From IMG/VR virus record IMGVR_UViG_3300024306_000085, positions 1 to 23,877 of that record: a DNA stretch of 23,877 bases; one strand, 5' to 3'. The position numbers and the translations under genes were made by a program. Below the pieces are notes generated by a model. The model worked only from the letters and a program-made list of their open reading frames with translations, was not told where the DNA came from and did no database searches. Positions 3,177-20,153 of the stretch are shown here, in pieces (positions within the stretch are counted from its first letter, which is position 1; each line of letters begins with the position of its first letter). The stretch comes from a virus.

Positions 3177-3527
3177 TTATCTCACGAGATCGTTTGCGTC
3201 TTGGATTGAGCGCGCGATCCCTGCGATGCCACCAGCGCCCTGCACGGTGCTGAGCCATGCGTGCTGCTCTGGCCGGACCCTGCCACGCTCGGTTTTCACC
3301 TCGATGCTGGTGAACACGGCTACCTGCCGGCCCACCATGTCGGACGTGATGGTGATGGTGCGCCAGCCGATGAGGTCAGCGGAGCCGCGTGCGAGGCCGA
3401 ACTGCACGGGCCGGCCGGTGCGTGGATCTGGCAGCTGGCCGACTTGATTACGGAAGAGGCGGAGATCGGAGCGGGTGCCGAGTGCGAGGCGGATGCGTTG
3501 CTGTAGATCCGTCTCAGCGTTGGCCAC
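3177..3527 (-). CDS. VRR-NUC domain nuclease
   Basis: This is a 116-residue, single-domain nuclease of the VRR-NUC branch of the PD-(D/E)XK fold, a family that cuts branched or flap DNA in phage replication. It shows an N-terminal helix with AETDLQQRIRLALG and then FRNQVGQLPDPRTGRPVQFGL. The metal-binding core follows: ARGSADLIG supplies the Asp, and IEVKTERGRVRPEQHAWL supplies the Glu-x-Lys. The C-terminus is AGGIAGIARSIQDANDLV. I chose the GTG at 3527 because homology starts there and it overlaps the helicase stop by only 14 bp. An upstream ATG at 3623 would bury 110 bp in the helicase gene. Pairing with an SF2 helicase and a VapE primase is typical of phage replication modules. Confidence 0.85.
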   Translation of the reverse strand: MANAETDLQQRIRLALGTRSDLRLFRNQVGQLPDPRTGRPVQFGLARGSADLIGWRTITITSDMVGRQVAVFTSIEVKTERGRVRPEQHAWLSTVQGAGGIAGIARSIQDANDLVR

Positions 3528-4887
3528 GCGCCTGATGGATCCGATACGCCCAGCCGGGACTGTAACCGCGTTCCTTGGCCAGGGCGAGCAGTTGGGGGAG
3601 GGTGCGGGCTGCTTGGCGTTCACGTTTGGCGCGGTCGCGTTCTGCGATGCGCTGCTGCACCTGCTCGCGCTTGAGTTCTTTTAGCTCGCCCATGATCTGC
3701 CGGATCTTGGTGCTGCGGATCGGGGCGCAGTGAGCGCCGCATACCGGGCAGATGGGCTGCGGCTTGAACGCGGCGTAGCACTGCGGGCATGTGCGCACTG
3801 ATGGCGCTGCGGTCTCACGGCTGCGCACGACGCCCTCGGCCAGGCTCCACTGGCGCGGATCATCTGGGAAGCCGTGCCGGGTGACATTGCCCACATGGTC
3901 AAGGATCAGCGCGTGAGTCTTGCCTGGCGCAGGCCGCAGCACGCGGCCCACCTGCTGCAGGTAAAGCCCGAGCGATTGCGTTGGCCTGAGCAGGATCGCG
4001 CACGATGCGGCCGGCACATCGAAGCCCTCGCTGACCACATCCACGGTCACGAGCACGCGGGTGATGCCGGCTGCATACTGCGCCACCACCTGATCGCGGT
4101 CGGTTGTATTGCCCAGCAGCAGTGCCGCGCTGATCCCGGATGTCTTAAATGCGTCGCAGACTGAGACGGCATGGGTCACGTTGCAGCAGAAGGCGATGGC
4201 CTGCTGCCCTGCTGCTAGGCGTTGGTAATGGGCGATGGCGTCCCCTGTGACGGTGGGGCGATCCATGGCAGCTGCTGCCTGATCGTTGGCGTAGTCACCA
4301 GCGCGGCGGCGGATGCCGGACAGATCAGCAACGACCGGCGGCGCATAGATCCGCGCGGCGGATAGGAATCCCCAGAACACCAGATCAGCAACGCTGGGGC
4401 CCACCACCAGCTGATCGAACGCCTCGCCCAGGCCGCGGCCATCTAGGCGGCATGGGGTAGCTGTGACGCCAAGCCGGTAAGCATTGGGCCAGTGCTCGAG
4501 GATTTGGCGCCAGCTACCTGCTGCTGCGTGATGCGCCTCATCAATGATCACCAGCGATGGGCTCCATGCCATGCCGGCCATCCTGCGGACTAGCGTCTGC
4601 ACCGATGCCACCTGCACCGCGTGATCGGTTGCCGGATGGCCCGCGGCGATGATGCCGTGATCGAGTCCAACCCATTGCAGCTTGCTGGCGGTTTGGTGGA
4701 TCAGCTCGCGGCGATGCACGAGGATCAGCACCTGCCGGCCCTTGGCTGCTGCCTGTGCGGCGATGGTGGCGAGGATCACGGTTTTGCCGCCACCGGTCGG
4801 GAGACATAGCAGCGGTGCCTTGGCGCCCTGCTGCATGCCAGAGCGCAGATCGTTGATAGCTTGCTCCTGATACGCGCGCAGATTCAC
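3514..4887 (-). CDS. SF2 DEAD/DEAH-type helicase with C-terminal zinc finger
   Basis: This 457-residue ATP-dependent helicase has the type III restriction/RecQ-like ('ResIII') layout. Q-region LRAYQEQAI is at 3-11, motif I TGGGKT at 31-36, motif II DEAH at 116-119 and motif III GVTATP at 140-145. Motifs IV-VI lie in the second RecA-like lobe, which includes LVTVDVVSEGFDVPAA and QQVGRVLRP. A four-cysteine zinc-binding knuckle (CPQC...CPVC) follows. The tail is basic (ERDRAKRERQAARTL). The start overlaps the preceding gene's stop by 4 bp (ATGA), a sign of translational coupling. Such helicases occur in many phage replication modules beside VRR-NUC and VapE genes, where they probably remodel replication forks. 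Its placement directly behind the ibrA/ibrB-like genes leaves open a role with them instead. Confidence 0.88.
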   Translation of the reverse strand: MNLRAYQEQAINDLRSGMQQGAKAPLLCLPTGGGKTVILATIAAQAAAKGRQVLILVHRRELIHQTASKLQWVGLDHGIIAAGHPATDHAVQVASVQTLVRRMAGMAWSPSLVIIDEAHHAAAGSWRQILEHWPNAYRLGVTATPCRLDGRGLGEAFDQLVVGPSVADLVFWGFLSAARIYAPPVVADLSGIRRRAGDYANDQAAAAMDRPTVTGDAIAHYQRLAAGQQAIAFCCNVTHAVSVCDAFKTSGISAALLLGNTTDRDQVVAQYAAGITRVLVTVDVVSEGFDVPAASCAILLRPTQSLGLYLQQVGRVLRPAPGKTHALILDHVGNVTRHGFPDDPRQWSLAEGVVRSRETAAPSVRTCPQCYAAFKPQPICPVCGAHCAPIRSTKIRQIMGELKELKREQVQQRIAERDRAKRERQAARTLPQLLALAKERGYSPGWAYRIHQARGQR

Positions 4888-5132
4888 AGCGGCAGCTCCA
4901 GCTGTGTGCCATCAGCCGGTACACCATTCACTGCAATCTGGGCCATGGTCACAGCCCGGCGCTGCTGATCGTATGCGGGCTTTGCATAACCGAGCTGGTA
5001 TAGGTGCAGATCGTTTTGCAGCAATGCCACGGCCACTGCACGCCAGGATGGCGCGCGCCCGGTGGCTGCCACCTTGGCAGGCACTTCATCCGGGATCTCG
5101 TGCGAATAACAACGGGCTTGCCACGTCCGCAC
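4884..5132 (-). CDS. Small conserved phage protein of the ibrAB-like operon
   Basis: This is an 82-residue protein if it starts at the GTG at 5132 (VRTWQARCYSHEIPDEVP). The reading frame is open further up, to 5216. The pattern 'W..RCYS..IPDEVP..V....R.PSW..VA.ALL.NDL.L..LG' is one I recognise from uncharacterised phage proteins encoded behind DUF3440/IbrA-type genes. No enzymatic motif is visible. It ends GTQLELPL. The start lies 47 bp inside the preceding gene and the stop overlaps the helicase start by 4 bp, so it is coupled on both sides. The function is unknown; constant company with the PAPS-reductase-like and ParB-like genes suggests an accessory subunit. Confidence 0.65.
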   Translation of the reverse strand: MRTWQARCYSHEIPDEVPAKVAATGRAPSWRAVAVALLQNDLHLYQLGYAKPAYDQQRRAVTMAQIAVNGVPADGTQLELPL

Positions 5133-5511
5133 GTATTCCGAGACTCGTTCGGTAGCGCATCTCCCAGGACTGAATGGCTCTGTCTGCTTGGCGGTTCGCC
5201 AAAATCCTTTGCTCATCGGTCAAAAGTCCCCATGCTTGGCGAGTGATGTCTTCAGGGCATCGCAAGGCCAAGGCGCAGGCTGCATGGCCAATCCATGCCT
5301 TGCGGTTCAGGTTGTAGTCAGTCAGTGCATTGATGCAGCTGTTGGGCCATTCCACCGTGACCCTCTGCATGTACCGGCCATAAAGGCGGTGGTTGCCGGT
5401 AAAGATCACGGCCCGTTGCAGGAAGAGGCGGCGATTGGCCACCTCACCCCACATGTTGAAGCCGATCTCTTCCCAAGTATCAATCGGTAACCAAATCCTC
5501 TTCAGCTTCAC
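5086..5511 (-). CDS. Conserved phage protein of the ibrAB-like operon
   Basis: This is a 141-residue protein starting at the GTG at 5511. That start is preceded by GGAGG nine bases upstream, a better-spaced site than the TTG at 5517. Conserved-looking blocks are KRIWLPIDTWEEI, NMWGEVANRRLFLQRAVIFTG, LYGRYMQRV..EWP.SC.NALTD, LNRKAWIGHAACALA and CPEDITRQAWG.LTDEQ..LANRQADRAI. I associate this pattern with phage proteins next to IbrA/IbrB-like pairs, but no biochemical activity is known to me. The protein is helical, with no membrane segment. Its start overlaps the end of the EctC-IbrB fusion by 32 bp, which ties expression to it. Confidence 0.72.
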   Translation of the reverse strand: MKLKRIWLPIDTWEEIGFNMWGEVANRRLFLQRAVIFTGNHRLYGRYMQRVTVEWPNSCINALTDYNLNRKAWIGHAACALALRCPEDITRQAWGLLTDEQRILANRQADRAIQSWEMRYRTSLGIRADVASPLLFARDPG

Positions 5512-6421
5512 GCTCAAGATCCTCCGTTACGTCGTCGATCTGCTCAACGTCCCACGCCTTGCTGAAATCCTTGCCAAGAAATAGAGACGCAAGACCGGTC
5601 ACCTGCTTAAGGCGCAGCAGCTCATCCGGGCTCATGCCGATGTGCTTACAGATCCATGCGTCACCTTTACCCATCTCGATCAACTCGGCAACGATCACGC
5701 TCATCAGTTCGATGTTGTGCGAACCACGAGCGCGGTTGTGGCGGATGGTGGAGGCCATGCGGTCGTGCAGTTCTTTGCGAAGAACGACCACAGGCAAGCG
5801 GCCGCCTTCACGTTCACGGATACGCTGACTGTTTTTAAGCGTCAGGTATCGGTGAAAACCGTCAACGACCACATAAAGGTCGCGTTCGGCATCATGCACG
5901 ACAACGACAGGCTGTGTGTATCCGTCTTCCCAAATCGATGTTTCGAGTAGTGCCATTTCAGGCGGCGCCACAGAGTTGGGGTTGTAATCGTTGGCGGTAA
6001 CTTTCTCGATAGGAATACTGCGGACAGAGTAGACCGGGGATCGCCAAGGGTAAGAGTCGTTCTCATCGTGGAGTTCGTCGCCTTTTAGAGGTGGGTTAAA
6101 TACGCAGATCAGGGTTGTGGGCTCTAGCGCCTCAAACGTGTGAGCATCGTGCTTGTCGAGCACGTAGGTCACGTCAGGGTCAATGTCCGTGATCTCTTGC
6201 GTTGCTTCGTTGATTAGCACGCCTTTGCCGCTGACGCAGTAGCAGGTTTCGAGATGGTGCTGGTAGTGCCAGCGGTGTGGCTTGCCTGGGTGGATGACGG
6301 TCTTGGTCATGCTGTATCCCATGCCGTCGGTTTCAACGACTAGCCGATGGCTGGTGAAGCCACCGCGTGGGCATTGCACAACGCGGTCATCAGGAAGCTG
6401 AGCGGCGTTGAGGATCTTCAT
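5480..6421 (-). CDS. Ectoine synthase-like cupin fused to IbrB/ParB-like domain
   Basis: This is a 313-residue two-domain protein. Residues 1-126 align along their length with EctC (L-ectoine synthase, which closes N-gamma-acetyl-diaminobutyrate to ectoine). The blocks are DGMGYSMTKTVIHPG, HYQHHLETCYCVSGKG, YVLDKHDAHTF and CVFNPPLKGDELHDEN. The residues matching the iron ligands of Paenibacillus lautus EctC (Glu57, Tyr85, His93) are Glu58, Tyr86 and His94. Other pocket residues (Arg26, Tyr53, His56, Cys106, Phe108, Glu116, His118) also match; Trp21 is replaced by Phe22. Residues about 130-290 are a ParB/sulfiredoxin-fold domain of the IbrB type, with VVDGFHRYLTL and HNRARGSHNIELM, followed by a helical region (GMSPDELLRLKQVTGLASLF). 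The C-terminus is acidic. The start overlaps the ibrA-like stop by 4 bp. No ectA or ectB is visible. The domain reading is strong; the function is unknown. Confidence 0.85.
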   Translation of the reverse strand: MKILNAAQLPDDRVVQCPRGGFTSHRLVVETDGMGYSMTKTVIHPGKPHRWHYQHHLETCYCVSGKGVLINEATQEITDIDPDVTYVLDKHDAHTFEALEPTTLICVFNPPLKGDELHDENDSYPWRSPVYSVRSIPIEKVTANDYNPNSVAPPEMALLETSIWEDGYTQPVVVVHDAERDLYVVVDGFHRYLTLKNSQRIREREGGRLPVVVLRKELHDRMASTIRHNRARGSHNIELMSVIVAELIEMGKGDAWICKHIGMSPDELLRLKQVTGLASLFLGKDFSKAWDVEQIDDVTEDLEREAEEDLVTD

Positions 6422-7734
6422 TTGGCGGAACGGTTGAGAACTTGGCTGTACTTGCGTTGGATTGATCTCTGGCGGCGCTGCTGCTCTTGCGTTGGCGCCA
6501 GGCCAAGGTATTTACAGGTGTGGTCGTTCTTGAGAACAGTGATGGCAAAGCGCTTCCACGATGTGACCATGCTGTTGTGGCATGGCAGATCATCGAGATG
6601 ATCAGGAGGCACCTTGATCACGACACGGCGTAGGTTGTTGCCGCCGTGACGTGTGGTGCCATTGATGTAGAAGCGGATGCCGATACGGTTAAGAGCTTCA
6701 ATGATGGCCTCAGGAAGACCGCGCCCCACCCTGCCCCAGTAGCGGATTGATTGGATGAAGCGCTGCTTAAAATTTGCGCTTGACTGATCCGGCAAGGTGG
6801 CCAGCAGGAACTTCACAAAGGATTTCCAAGTGTGGCCGGGCGGGAGCCTAAAGGATTTGTAATCAAGTTGCTTGCCATAGGTGGCCATGAAGTTGGCACC
6901 GCCGACTCTGGCGCAAAGCCTTGCCCAGATCTGCGGGTCGATTACCCGATACATGGCAAGGCTGGATTTGGACTCTGACATAAACGGCGAGGCAACCCGC
7001 ATCTTCTTAATGGGGATGCCAGCCATGTAAAACACGTCGTACAGCTTGTTGTAATCCCACCCGAACTTGGCGTTTGCGGTCCAGATGTCCTCTGTTCGCC
7101 AGTCATAGATGGGATAGCAATTGTAAGTGTGTGCGGTGTTCTTCTTGGTCCACATGCGGCCAAGCATCGTCTCCTTGTCTTGGTTCAGGATCGCCCGGAA
7201 TCGGTTTAGCGACTCAACAGTGCGAATACCGATCAGGTTGGCGCACGGCTCACCCTGGCTGTACCACTCAGCGAACATGTCCCAAAAAGTGGCGTAGTCC
7301 ATGTTTTCAATGAACAGATCGCCAAAGGGCTGGTTCTGCAGGTTCACGATGTAATCCTGCTGCGGCATGGGCCGAATCCAGCGGTGACGGTCGGCCTCGC
7401 CCCAGCACTGCCAATCGATTTCGTAGGAGCTGACCGTGCAAGGCAACGTAATTGGAAGGCAGCACCAATAGATGTCGAGGATGTCTCGATTGGCCTCGAG
7501 GATGCGGTGCATGAACTCCTCGCTGTGGGTGTAGTTGGCTTCGTTGTCCATGATCTGGACGCCAACCTTGACCTGCAGCTTCCTGTCTCGGATGTAGTCG
7601 CAAACGAGATTCAAGAGAACGCCGCTGTCCTTGCCGCCCGAGAAGGAAACGTAGACCCGCTTGAAGTGGGCAAAGATGAAGTCCAGCCGCTCTATGGCGG
7701 CGTCATAGACGGATTGTTCGAGGTACTGGCGCAT
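6418..7734 (-). CDS. IbrA-like PAPS reductase-family protein (DUF3440)
   Basis: This is a 438-residue adenine-nucleotide alpha hydrolase-fold protein with the PP-loop SGGKDS at 32-37, as in PAPS reductases, DndC and tRNA thiolases. Downstream it has the features of the IbrA/DUF3440 family, such as WVRP-like WIRPMPQQDYIVNL, GIRTVESLNRFRA, NCYPIYDWRTEDIWTANAKFGWDYNKLYD and ASPFMSESKSSLAMYRVIDPQIWARL. IbrA and IbrB were described in E. coli as regulators of immunoglobulin-binding (eib) genes. Relatives are common in phages, but their substrates are unknown to me; the fold suggests ATP-driven activation or sulfur transfer, possibly on nucleic acid. It is the first gene of the leftward operon, diverging from the recE-like gene across a 77-bp region with tandem repeats. 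No clear ribosome binding site precedes the ATG. Confidence 0.85.
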   Translation of the reverse strand: MRQYLEQSVYDAAIERLDFIFAHFKRVYVSFSGGKDSGVLLNLVCDYIRDRKLQVKVGVQIMDNEANYTHSEEFMHRILEANRDILDIYWCCLPITLPCTVSSYEIDWQCWGEADRHRWIRPMPQQDYIVNLQNQPFGDLFIENMDYATFWDMFAEWYSQGEPCANLIGIRTVESLNRFRAILNQDKETMLGRMWTKKNTAHTYNCYPIYDWRTEDIWTANAKFGWDYNKLYDVFYMAGIPIKKMRVASPFMSESKSSLAMYRVIDPQIWARLCARVGGANFMATYGKQLDYKSFRLPPGHTWKSFVKFLLATLPDQSSANFKQRFIQSIRYWGRVGRGLPEAIIEALNRIGIRFYINGTTRHGGNNLRRVVIKVPPDHLDDLPCHNSMVTSWKRFAITVLKNDHTCKYLGLAPTQEQQRRQRSIQRKYSQVLNRSAK

Positions 7735-14742: not shown

Positions 14743-15258
14743 CTAGCCCTTGGATGCAGTGACGCCAAGGTCTGCGTTATATCTTCCAGATTCCGCGTAG
14801 CTGCGCTCCACAGTGCCACTCACGAGGATGAATTTCATCTGACCGAACTTCATGCCAGGCCAGATGCCGAGAGGGTGCAGGCGGCGCTGATTGCAGATCT
14901 CCATCGTGAGTCTGCTGCCATACCATCCTGGATCGCACCAGCCGGCCTCAGCATGATCCCAGCCCTCGCGTGCGCGGCTTGATTTGAGCACGAATTGAGC
15001 GCCGACGTGATTCGGCAGGTTGAAGATCTCGCGCGTCTCAGCCAGGAAGAACTCACCCGGCTGGATCAGATACGGATCATCCGCCGTATGGCCAAGGATG
15101 TCCACCACCTGCAGCTCAGGCGTCTCTGGCACCTCGATCATGATCCGGCTGCCCAGCGTCACGTCCAAGCTGGCCGGGTTGAGCAGTTCTTCATCAAACG
15201 GCATCACCATGGCGTGCTGCTTGCACAGCCGCCGGATTTCGTGGTCAGGTACCAGCAC
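14743..15258 (-). CDS. dcd: dCTP deaminase
   Basis: This 171-residue enzyme of the dCTP deaminase/dUTPase superfamily converts dCTP to dUTP (or to dUMP in bifunctional forms) for dTTP synthesis. The family motifs are NPASLDVTLGSRI (27-39), PGEFFLAETREIFNLPNHVGAQF, the substrate-binding KSSRAREG (92-99), HAEAGWCDPGWYGSRLTMEI with Glu120 at the place of the catalytic base, and GIWPGMKFGQMKFI. The GTG start at 15258 is followed directly by the family's N-terminus. A strong terminator lies downstream. It is common in phage nucleotide-metabolism sets. Deaminase is more likely than plain dUTPase because of the SSRAREG/GW.DPG motifs, but bifunctionality cannot be told apart here. Confidence 0.88.
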   Translation of the reverse strand: MLVPDHEIRRLCKQHAMVMPFDEELLNPASLDVTLGSRIMIEVPETPELQVVDILGHTADDPYLIQPGEFFLAETREIFNLPNHVGAQFVLKSSRAREGWDHAEAGWCDPGWYGSRLTMEICNQRRLHPLGIWPGMKFGQMKFILVSGTVERSYAESGRYNADLGVTASKG

Positions 15259-15333
15259 AGGTTTTGCGACTAAGATTTAGGTGCCCCAGCGGGTTGCCGC
15301 CCCTGGAGCGTGACCACCTGCAAGACCCAGGCG
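15259..15333. other. Short spacer between dcd and the HNH gene
   Basis: 75 bp separate the divergent dcd and NUMOD4/HNH starts. I see no convincing promoter box; TAAGATTTAGG at 15272-15282 is the only AT-rich patch. An ATG at 15310 is in frame with the HNH gene and would shorten the spacer. Confidence 0.3.
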
Positions 15334-15834
15334 ATGACCACCAGCGTAGAGGTGTGGAAGCCCGTTGTCGGCTACGAAGGGCTTTACGAAGTGTCAAACC
15401 AAGGCAGGGTGCGCAACCTGCAAACCACGAGAATACTCAGCACTAAGCCAAGCAAGCATCTTGGATACGTTCTCTGCAACTTGAGACGTCAAGGTGTAGT
15501 GCAAGGGTGCTATGCCCATTCTCTTGTACTTGAGGCTTTTGTTGGCTTAAGGCCAAGTTCAAATCATCAAGCCTGTCATGGCAACGGAAACAGAGCAGAC
15601 AATCGACTGCAAAATCTTCGATGGGGTACACGTGCCGAAAACTACGAAGATGCCCGACGACATGGCACCAACTCAAAAGGCAATCGCCATGGCAGTGCAA
15701 AGTTGACTGAGGATGCGGTCCTAGCCATCAGAGCAGACAAGCGCCTGCACCGTGAAATCGCCTTGGACTATGGAGTCAGCAGGTCCCGAGTGACCACTAT
15801 TAAAAACCGCAAGGACTGGGCTTGGCTGCCCTAG
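15334..15834 (+). CDS. Free-standing NUMOD4/HNH homing endonuclease
   Basis: This is a 166-residue protein from MTTSVEVWKPVVGYEGLYEV (15334, AGG three bases upstream); an ATG at 15310 adds eight residues. NUMOD4 is seen in VEVWKPVVGYEGLYEVSNQG. The HNH core has AHSLVLEAFVG, HQACHGNGNRADNRLQNL and WGTRAENYEDARRHGT. The C-terminal HTH-like REIALDYGVSRSRVTTIKNR should bind DNA. Enzymes of this kind nick or cut a neighbouring allele and spread their own gene. It is more AT-rich than its neighbours and runs against the leftward late operon, overlapping the endolysin stop by 4 bp. These are signs of insertion by homing. Confidence 0.85.
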   Translation: MTTSVEVWKPVVGYEGLYEVSNQGRVRNLQTTRILSTKPSKHLGYVLCNLRRQGVVQGCYAHSLVLEAFVGLRPSSNHQACHGNGNRADNRLQNLRWGTRAENYEDARRHGTNSKGNRHGSAKLTEDAVLAIRADKRLHREIALDYGVSRSRVTTIKNRKDWAWLP

Positions 15835-17879: not shown

Positions 17880-20153
17880 CTACGCGCTCTCAAGAGCAGA
17901 CAAGCGAGCTTCCATTGCTTCGATCTGCTCCTTTTGGCGTTTGATCAGATTCAGGAGATGAGGTACAAAGCGTTCGTACTGGACGCCTTCAGGCTCAGGA
18001 GTGCAAGGCGTTGAAACAGCGGCCCCGTTCTCGTCGTGAGTAATCTCAGTTGTTTTCCAGTGAACAAGACGAGGATCAATAGAAGCTACTTCTTCTGCAA
18101 TGAAGCCCCAGTAGCTGTGTTCAGAGCAGTCGTGCTCGCAGGTAGAGCGATACCAGACAGGGCGACAAGCCAATAGCGCATCGGCGTATTGATCATCAAG
18201 AGTTTCAACGTCAGTCTTGTATTTAATGGATGACGTACTTCTTTGTAGATAACCACTGGAGTCAACATTAACATTGGCGGCATTGCCTGTCGTAAAGGTG
18301 TAAACTCCGCCGATTGAGGTTAGCCCACCATTGCCAATCCTCATCCGCTCCGTCGGAGAACTCGCCCCATCCGCAGTAGTGGAGAACACTAAACGCCCTG
18401 GCATGTCATTAGTGCCAGGGGTGCCGTCTACGAAAACATCAATCAACGCAGCAGTTCTAGTTGCTGTTCCATCTGTTCCTTGGAACTCAAGACGGCCAAG
18501 CCTATCTTCGGCATTAACAATGGTATTGCTTCCTGCGGTGGTTCCTCTAGTCTTTGCAAGCACAACTCCCGGAGATACGGCGTTATCACCGAATCTTGTA
18601 AAACGTGGCGATGAAAGTTCGTAGTTTGAACCTTCGATCTGGAATACATGATCTCCACGCGCACTAGACGTACCAACTAGGAGCCTGCCGGAGCTGTCCA
18701 GCCGCGCTTTCTCGCTGCCGGCTGGCTCAAATGTAATGCCAGTGCCAGTTTTGGAACGTAAACCTAAAACAGTGCCACCGTAGACAAGATGATCGCCATT
18801 AGTTCCACGGTCACTATTGCCAAAACGAACAGCAACATACCCGCCCGCATTTGGGTTGTTGATAAAGATGCCACTTTCTGCCGCTTGATCACGTTCAACG
18901 TGGAGAACAGCCTGCGGGCTCGTGGTTCCGATGCCGACGAAGCCAGCCGAGGTGATTCGCAGGCGTTCCTGAGGGGTGGTGGAACCAGATGGTGTTGTTG
19001 CTACCGAAACATATGCAGGCGAAGAAGTAGATGTAACTGCTCCATCGGTGCTGATAGTTATATTGGCGCCGACTCTGTATGACGAACCGTCGTAACCCCT
19101 TGCTTGTACAACGCCAATGAGTTGTGAACTGTTTATCGCTGCAGGAGAAGAAATCGTACCTCCAGCACCATCTAGTTGAATTGCTCCGCCATTTCCATAC
19201 CTAACCGACCTATAAAACCCGCCGTTAATATCAAAGAGTGCTTGCGGAGAACTGGTTGCAACACCAACATTCCCACTCGCATCCACAAACAACCGACCAG
19301 ACCCACCAGTGCTGATGGCTACTTGGTCTGCGCCGGGGCTGTAGATGCCGGTGTTTTCGTCGCCAGTGAACGTCAGCGATGGTGATGCTGCACTGCCCAG
19401 TGGCACGCTGAACCGTTCGCTGCTGGTCCACGCATCGGTCGCATCGTACCAGTTGATCGTCTTGTCGGTCGCACCTTTGAGCGTGATACCGCCACCGTCG
19501 GCGGTTGTATCGCTCGGCGTAGCAACATCACCGAGGATGATGTTCTTGTCTTCAACGACAAGATTCTGAGTATTGATGTTAGTGGTTGTGCCGTTGACGG
19601 TCAGATCACCAGCGACCGTCACAGCACCGTCAAACGTTGCTGCACCTGTCACGTCAAGCGTGCCAGGAATGTCCACGTTGCTGGTCCACTCCACACCAGT
19701 GCCAGCTGCATCGGTCTGCAGCAGTTGACGCGCAGCGCCATCAGCCAGCTTGCTAACGGCGATCTCGGCATTGGCTGCGATATCAGCATCAACGATGCTG
19801 GCATTGCCGCTCACCACAACAGTGCCGGACTGATTCGGCAGCGTGATGGTGCGGTCGGCCGTTGGGTTGGTGACCGCCAGCGTGGTTTCGAATCCGTCAG
19901 CAGTGCTGCCCTCAAAGGTCAGCGTGCCGGTGGTGCCGATCTCAAGGTTGCCGAGCACCGTGCCACCGCTCACGATGCTTGGGAAGTAGGCGAGGCTATT
20001 CCACGCGCTGCTGCCGTTGCCTACCTTGAGTTTCTTGGTGTCAGTTTCTAGCCCTACCTCATTCGCCAGCAGCGTCGGATTTGCCGCAGTCCAGTTCGCG
20101 GCTGTATCAGCACGCAACTGCAGCCGAACGTTGACGGTGGTAGGTGTTGTCAC
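17880..20153 (-). CDS. Tail fibre protein with C-terminal S74 chaperone
   Basis: This is a 757-residue host-recognition protein. The N-terminus (VNVRLQLRADTAANWTAANP, LLANEVGLETDTKKLKVGNG, SAWNSLAYFP) is the trimerising/attachment module common to phage fibres. Repetitive beta segments follow, including DLTVNGTTTNINTQNLVVED and GITLKGATDKTINWYD, which recur in marine and freshwater cyanophage fibres. Then come GIGTTSPQAVLHVER-type repeats. Residues about 641-757 form an S74 intramolecular chaperone (SSIKYKTDVETLDDQ, WGFIAEEVASIDPRLV) with a final coiled coil (LIKRQKEQIEAMEARLSALE). Such domains cut themselves off after trimer assembly. The start overlaps the upstream tail gene by 4 bp. The middle is more AT-rich than its neighbours, as expected for a region exchanged between phages. 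Confidence 0.88.
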   Translation of the reverse strand: MTTPTTVNVRLQLRADTAANWTAANPTLLANEVGLETDTKKLKVGNGSSAWNSLAYFPSIVSGGTVLGNLEIGTTGTLTFEGSTADGFETTLAVTNPTADRTITLPNQSGTVVVSGNASIVDADIAANAEIAVSKLADGAARQLLQTDAAGTGVEWTSNVDIPGTLDVTGAATFDGAVTVAGDLTVNGTTTNINTQNLVVEDKNIILGDVATPSDTTADGGGITLKGATDKTINWYDATDAWTSSERFSVPLGSAASPSLTFTGDENTGIYSPGADQVAISTGGSGRLFVDASGNVGVATSSPQALFDINGGFYRSVRYGNGGAIQLDGAGGTISSPAAINSSQLIGVVQARGYDGSSYRVGANITISTDGAVTSTSSPAYVSVATTPSGSTTPQERLRITSAGFVGIGTTSPQAVLHVERDQAAESGIFINNPNAGGYVAVRFGNSDRGTNGDHLVYGGTVLGLRSKTGTGITFEPAGSEKARLDSSGRLLVGTSSARGDHVFQIEGSNYELSSPRFTRFGDNAVSPGVVLAKTRGTTAGSNTIVNAEDRLGRLEFQGTDGTATRTAALIDVFVDGTPGTNDMPGRLVFSTTADGASSPTERMRIGNGGLTSIGGVYTFTTGNAANVNVDSSGYLQRSTSSIKYKTDVETLDDQYADALLACRPVWYRSTCEHDCSEHSYWGFIAEEVASIDPRLVHWKTTEITHDENGAAVSTPCTPEPEGVQYERFVPHLLNLIKRQKEQIEAMEARLSALESA

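Follow-up and report, generated by a model that had tools for sequence, protein, structure and literature searches.

Why should a phage gene join an ectoine synthase (EctC) to a ParB-like domain of the IbrB type, and what could such a protein do during infection? The question was raised by a viral contig from IMG/VR (IMGVR_UViG_3300024306_000085), which was analysed over its whole length of 23,877 nucleotides and is called here the window. Nearly every phage ectoine synthase found sits in one and the same cassette, composed of IbrA, EctC, IbrB and two small proteins, p143 and p110, with EctC either fused to IbrB or encoded separately; the fusion is one state of this larger unit. The cassette and its nearest neighbour are arranged in the window as follows.

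5480–6421, minus strand: EctC-IbrB fusion protein, 313 aa (list of open reading frames; Pfam, PHROG and NCBIfam profiles; PDB sequence and fold matches)
6044–6382, minus strand: EctC-type metal cupin domain of the fusion (PF06339 placed by genome search; ligands E58, Y86 and H94; Phe22; Trp51)
5483–6043, minus strand: IbrB-type ParB/Srx-like domain of the fusion, residues 127–313 (phrog_2159, 263 bits; family alignment; profile match to ParB/Noc)
6418–7734, minus strand: IbrA, PP-loop ATP-pyrophosphatase/DUF3440, PAPS-reductase-like, 438 aa, EctC-associated subtype (Pfam, SGGKDS loop, clade test)
5086–5511, minus strand: p143, orphan all-helical module protein (GTG at 5511 taken as its start by comparison with homologues)
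4884–5216, minus strand: p110, stand-alone copy of the C-terminal tail of IbrA/DUF3440 (PHROG match and homologues)
3514–4887, minus strand: SF2 (ResIII) helicase, next in the same overlapping gene run (profile matches)

IbrA, the fusion, p143, p110 and the helicase form one run of overlapping minus-strand genes, after which come a VRR nuclease and a VapE-type primase. The helicase is probably a replication neighbour and not a member of the module. The open reading frame of the fusion starts with the ATG at 6421 and shares 4 bp with the end of IbrA upstream (6418–6421), IbrA being the direct neighbour of the gene that holds the IbrB part. The endolysin of this phage is 77% identical to that of S-CBS3 and its primase is 50% identical to that of S-LBS1; judged from its genes, it is a phage of the Synechococcus siphophage kind, living on freshwater or estuarine cyanobacteria. 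In S-LBS1 itself an annotated “DNA modification methylase” (L372, 9533–10429) adjoins the SF2 helicase at the place of the module, which was seen in this one case only. Elsewhere the window encodes a dCTP deaminase-like protein (14743–15258, minus strand; PF22769, 95 bits; phrog_1663), a NUMOD4-HNH homing-type endonuclease adjoining the endolysin gene (15310–15834, plus strand) and a tail protein with the N-terminus of a major tropism determinant (Mtd_N) and a Peptidase_S74 end (17880–20153, minus strand).

The initial annotation, which did not give the strand, took the EctC-type and IbrB-type domains for parts of one true fusion gene, and this is borne out. Since EctC and IbrB are two genes in Pseudoalteromonas phage XCL1123 and in the locus L126, one might suspect that two genes were joined here by assembly (a join would lie near 6030–6050) or by gene calling. 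Full-length fusions were found, however, in many independent IMG/VR contigs, with the same module as their gene context, and in the cultured Mycobacterium phages Gaia and Nebkiss, while both halves are under strong purifying selection (median dN/dS 0.066 for EctC and 0.011 for IbrB). Because independent copies exist, the artefact is refuted in practice and its probability is negligible.

Residues 15–126 are EctC by every test applied. They score 126.7 bits against the Ectoine_synth profile PF06339 (cut-off 27), six times more than against Cupin_2 (20.7 bits, under the cut-off of that family), and the NCBIfam profile of ectoine synthase NF009806 is matched with 134 bits at a cut-off of 128. The top sequence matches in PDB are four ectoine synthases with E-values about 1e-22. 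In the AlphaFold2 model pLDDT exceeds 90 across most of the EctC domain, the IbrB half being less confident, and all of the top eight PDB folds are ectoine synthases (E from 6e-14 to 7e-13), while the best cupin fold of another kind follows at 4e-8, about five orders of magnitude weaker. A general cupin family, which had been named as the outcome that would speak against EctC in the N-terminal part, is thus ruled out by profile score and fold match.

The active site was compared in 70 phage EctCs, each below 85% identity. Metal ligands of EctC are Glu57, Tyr84/85 and His92/93 (PMC6344544); they correspond to E58, Y86 and H94 of the fusion, in the exact register proposed initially, and are present in 70/70, 70/70 and 69/70 phage proteins, respectively. 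Invariant in all 70 are S24, R26, T41, Y53, H56, E116 and H118, and F108 is kept in 69. The initial annotation saw a single deviation, Phe22 in place of Trp21. This replacement is real, but it does not stand alone, as Thr39 also differs from Asn38 of the P. lautus enzyme. In bacterial EctCs that site holds N, H or T, the last being common there too, which rules it out as a phage-specific mark and leaves only the change of Trp as diagnostic. Trp21 is reported to be fully conserved among 437 operon-encoded EctCs, and the substitution W21A leaves 9.7% of activity (about 90% is lost) in P. lautus EctC (PMC6344544). Some phage proteins align here in the alternative register that solitary EctCs of bacteria also show (V-x-W-G-N-G-x-S-R-R), and Phe stands clade-wide in both registers with the exception of one locus, L236. 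A new Trp51, two residues before the substrate-contacting Tyr, is found in 69 of the 70 phage EctCs at a place occupied by Ile, Leu or Met in bacteria; judging from strand alternation, its side chain should face the pocket. With the metal and catalytic set conserved, the loss of Trp21 and the gain of Trp51 point to a changed pocket. Phage EctCs also differ from bacterial ones by Phe96 and Cys60, and they form one clade apart from both operon-linked and solitary bacterial enzymes (SH-aLRT 99).

That the C-terminal part is an IbrB-type ParB domain, as had been supposed, was confirmed by the match of residues 127–306 to the ParB-like family phrog_2159 (E 9e-78, 263 bits). It carries the conserved motifs ANDYNPN, DGFHR and TIRHNRARG. 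The IbrB family profile matches structures of ParB/Noc (1e-7) and, less closely, of SbnI/free serine kinase (1e-3), while the score of ParB_N (PF02195) against this half, 22.7 bits, is below the cut-off of 26.3. IbrA scores 183 bits with PF11922 and 35.7 bits with PAPS_reduct, and the SGGKDS loop of ATP-pyrophosphatases is conserved in it. According to the tests run, it appears to be neither assimilatory CysH (TIGR00434, 16 bits against a cut-off of 165; ECGxH is absent from its sequence) nor DndC (TIGR03183, 19.7 bits against a cut-off of 290.4). The IbrAs of EctC modules make up one clade with support 100, set apart from those of EctC-less modules and marked by dozens of diagnostic residues, some of them next to the PP-loop and to the D63/E65 motif. 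For p143 a confident model was obtained (pLDDT 91), consisting of helices only; homologues occur in Gaia, XCL1123, Amjad_SA, Mwe-JY13 and L126, and neither profile nor fold search gave a Pfam, PHROG or PDB match.

Phage EctCs were gathered from IMG/VR with four kinds of queries: the fusion, phage EctC domains, distant phage EctCs together with bacterial ones, and bacterial EctCs alone. The loci share descent, and the counts given here are not numbers of independent events. In all, the queries yielded 129 distinct EctC genes of phages, 77 fused to IbrB and 52 separate, and IbrA together with IbrB was found at all of them except at contig ends and in L123. The latter contig (IMGVR_UViG_3300022707_002010) is apparently a chimera, in which a segment of some 55 bases is repeated and breaks IbrB behind the EctC domain. 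Protein p143 is present at 124 of 126 distinct loci, and a separate p110 accompanies EctC at 117 of 127 loci, but occurs at only 1 of the 88 IbrAB loci that lack EctC. The content of the module is conserved while its gene order is shuffled (IbrA-EctC-IbrB-p143-p110, p143-p110-IbrA-EctC-IbrB, IbrA-EctC-p143-p110-IbrB and EctC-IbrB-p143-p110-IbrA were all seen), which argues for a joint function. Bacterial EctC as a query, which cannot favour IbrAB, gave the same result: among 69 newly fetched viral loci, many of them on contigs met before, IbrB was found at 68 and IbrA at 68. One of the two exceptions is a contig end; in the other, L373, the contig breaks off within p143, after EctC and IbrB, and IbrA is absent from the 4.9 kb upstream. 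Against 50,697 phage records the same query returned the two Gaia records, Nebkiss, XCL1123 and, as the only other match, a fragment of bacterial DNA with ectB under a wrong label. This fragment, MT835761 (L442, “Bacteriophage sp.”, UNVERIFIED), was the sole candidate for an EctC of a cultured phage outside the module, and it was discarded as bacterial ectB-ectC.

IbrAB modules devoid of EctC are common and mostly contain p143, in some cases fused to IbrB, so that EctC can be regarded as an added part of IbrAB. In a tree of 67 modules, thinned by identity, EctC is separate in 42, and the distribution of fused and separate states requires at least two changes. The module was found across Synechococcus-type, Mycobacterium and Pseudoalteromonas phages and on one Saprospiraceae-associated contig, and the only neighbours that recur around it are genes of replication and recombination. 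On these data EctC almost certainly belongs functionally to the IbrAB module.

The closest known relative is Mycobacterium phage Gaia (gp103–gp107, KJ567043), in which IbrA, the EctC-IbrB fusion and homologues of p143 and p110 follow in the order of the window and the fusion gp104, shared with Nebkiss, is 68% identical over 94%; unlike the window, Gaia has another host and an extra gene, gp105, between the fusion and the p143 homologue. Phage XCL1123 (MN313256) retains IbrA, EctC, IbrB and p143 in the same order, but with EctC and IbrB as two genes. With bacterial EctCs (5ONO, 5BXX) and the solitary ones the domain of the window has in common the fold, the metal ligands and nearly all substrate residues, while it is set apart by its own clade with the residue changes described above, by the lack of ectAB and by fusion or linkage to IbrAB. 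Adjacent IbrA and IbrB, as in the window, are also encoded by YbdN-YbdM of E. coli and by phages of Streptococcus, Lactobacillus and Flavobacterium, and many phages with IbrAB only also have p143; these systems differ in that they lack EctC, almost never have a separate p110 and carry IbrA of another clade. Dnd and Dpd systems resemble the pair in that PAPS-reductase-like DndC or the ParB-superfamily proteins DndB and DpdB belong to the set, but DndD/E, cysteine desulfurase and TGT were not seen in the window, and IbrA is far under the DndC cut-off. The join of EctC with IbrB is not new as an annotation. It is named in GenBank entries of Gaia and XCL1123, gp104 of Gaia being called “ectoine synthase/ParB multidomain protein”, so that the initial statement that no link between EctC and ParB-like proteins had been described holds for papers only: none discussing the fusion, and no functional study of that of Gaia and Nebkiss, was found in the open-licence literature. 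Nothing was found there either on the module as such, on the association of EctC with p110 and the IbrA clade, on the change from Trp to Phe with Trp51 or on a function, though a subscription paper may exist; for the biochemical function of IbrAB the same literature gave nothing decisive.

The most obvious role for such a gene would be production of a solute. Ectoine genes of viruses are reported in two papers of 2026, where they are proposed to aid the host osmotically, one such suggestion concerning an estuarine viral ectoine synthase (PMC13079714, PMC13288924), and conservation of the catalytic residues agrees with phage-made ectoine acting as an auxiliary metabolic product against osmotic stress. 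Absence of ectA and ectB, already pointed out for the vicinity of the gene, extends to the entire window, to all phage EctC loci and to 22 of 22 phage records, among them the complete genomes of Gaia and XCL1123. Supply of substrate by EctA and EctB is not strictly required, as solitary EctCs exist and that of P. syringae complements an ectC mutant (PMC5924519). However, the loss of Trp21 across the whole clade, the strict tie to IbrAB, p143 and p110 and the diversity of hosts all speak against an osmolyte, which we consider very improbable as the purpose of the gene. Phage EctC is very likely not for making ectoine, and in view of the module data the published reading of viral ectoine synthase as an osmoprotection gene is doubtful, as judged from the EctCs gathered here.

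The best explanation overall, to which we assign a probability of about 0.4, is that EctC may be an active cyclase with a changed substrate, joined with IbrA and IbrB in nucleic-acid modification. Judging from its residues, the domain would be a working metal-dependent cyclase of EctC type with an altered substrate pocket. IbrA, an ATP-pyrophosphatase of the DndC/PAPS-reductase kind, could adenylate and thereby activate a carbonyl or phosphate group; EctC would perform cyclodehydration on the same pathway, turning an amide into a cyclic amidine as in ectoine synthesis, and IbrB as a ParB/Srx-type protein may bind a nucleotide or nucleic acid and couple the step to DNA, much as DpdB does in the system for 7-deazaguanine. 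What is made would most likely be a nucleic-acid modification, formed early in infection, and not ectoine, an assignment that is tentative, with low confidence as to the substrate. Among the possibilities listed initially, a cupin retooled to modify nucleic acid or protein thereby becomes the favoured one, in the form of an enzymatic step of the IbrAB module. A narrower version gives EctC the part of a tailoring enzyme, which would close into a cyclic amidine an amino-acid-like group that IbrA and IbrB have attached to, or activated on, phage DNA (or RNA). It is rather unlikely; if true, it would, to our knowledge, show ectoine-synthase chemistry at work for the first time in something other than compatible solutes. 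The link to nucleic acids is supported by the likeness of IbrA to DndC/PAPS reductase in profile search. In DNA modification the ParB-superfamily proteins DpdB and DndB act as the ATPase for dPreQ0 insertion and as a regulator, respectively (PMC12839542). IbrA and IbrB adjoin a methyltransferase in phages RHph_I4 and 031MP004, and in Microbacterium phage Hendrix (L215, 3854–5146) IbrA directly follows genes of a glucosyltransferase, a methyltransferase and an N-acyltransferase, a neighbourhood that looks like a modification island. The annotated “DNA modification methylase” adjoining the helicase of the related S-LBS1 counts in the same direction. Against the nucleic-acid step it counts that evidence of this kind is thin, DNA methyltransferases being near only 9 of 127 distinct modules, that the ParB_N score of IbrB does not reach the Pfam cut-off, that this half is weaker in the AlphaFold model and that the step is in large part argued by analogy. 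In E. coli K-12 the homologous ybdN-ybdM pair lies close to the genes of citrate lyase and is controlled by a metabolic regulator (PMC9068703), a setting that gives no hint of DNA modification.

Two other readings have to be weighed against modification. EctC and IbrA may produce a diffusible metabolite, such as a cyclic amidine or a modified nucleotide, which serves anti-defence or host takeover and is attached to no nucleic acid. Co-occurrence in the module and the IbrA clade fit this equally, and EctC of H. elongata also cyclises glutamine to ADPC (PMC5924519); the ParB-like partner and the position among replication and recombination genes point to nucleic acid instead, and no transporter or acceptor gene recurs near the modules, so such a product is conceivable but doubtful. 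The name IbrA/B stands for “immunoglobulin-binding regulator”, and annotators treat these proteins as co-activators of prophage gene expression. The cupin could hence be a sensor which binds a small metabolite (a diaminobutyrate derivative, glutamine or ectoine) and switches IbrAB as activators of phage or prophage genes, the more so as EctC could be crystallised with substrate and product bound (PMC6344544). This version, in which the cupin was initially supposed to switch the ParB-like domain fused to it, is weakened by EctC being free-standing in about 40% of distinct modules, and in most of those placed in the tree, with positions shuffled, and by retention of the whole metal and catalytic set including the lid residues E116 and H118, which a pure sensor would not need. 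We regard the sensor as unlikely; phage EctC would more probably be an enzyme.

Pairs of IbrA and IbrB occur widely, in phages and plasmids as well as in enterobacteria. A partner with understood chemistry, the metal-dependent cyclodehydration of EctC, gives a handle on what they make. The IbrAB setting, together with absence of EctA and EctB, calls into question the current claim that viral ectoine synthase relieves salt stress. Availability of cultured Gaia and Nebkiss (M. smegmatis mc2 155) and XCL1123 (P. marina) allows the question to be tested directly.
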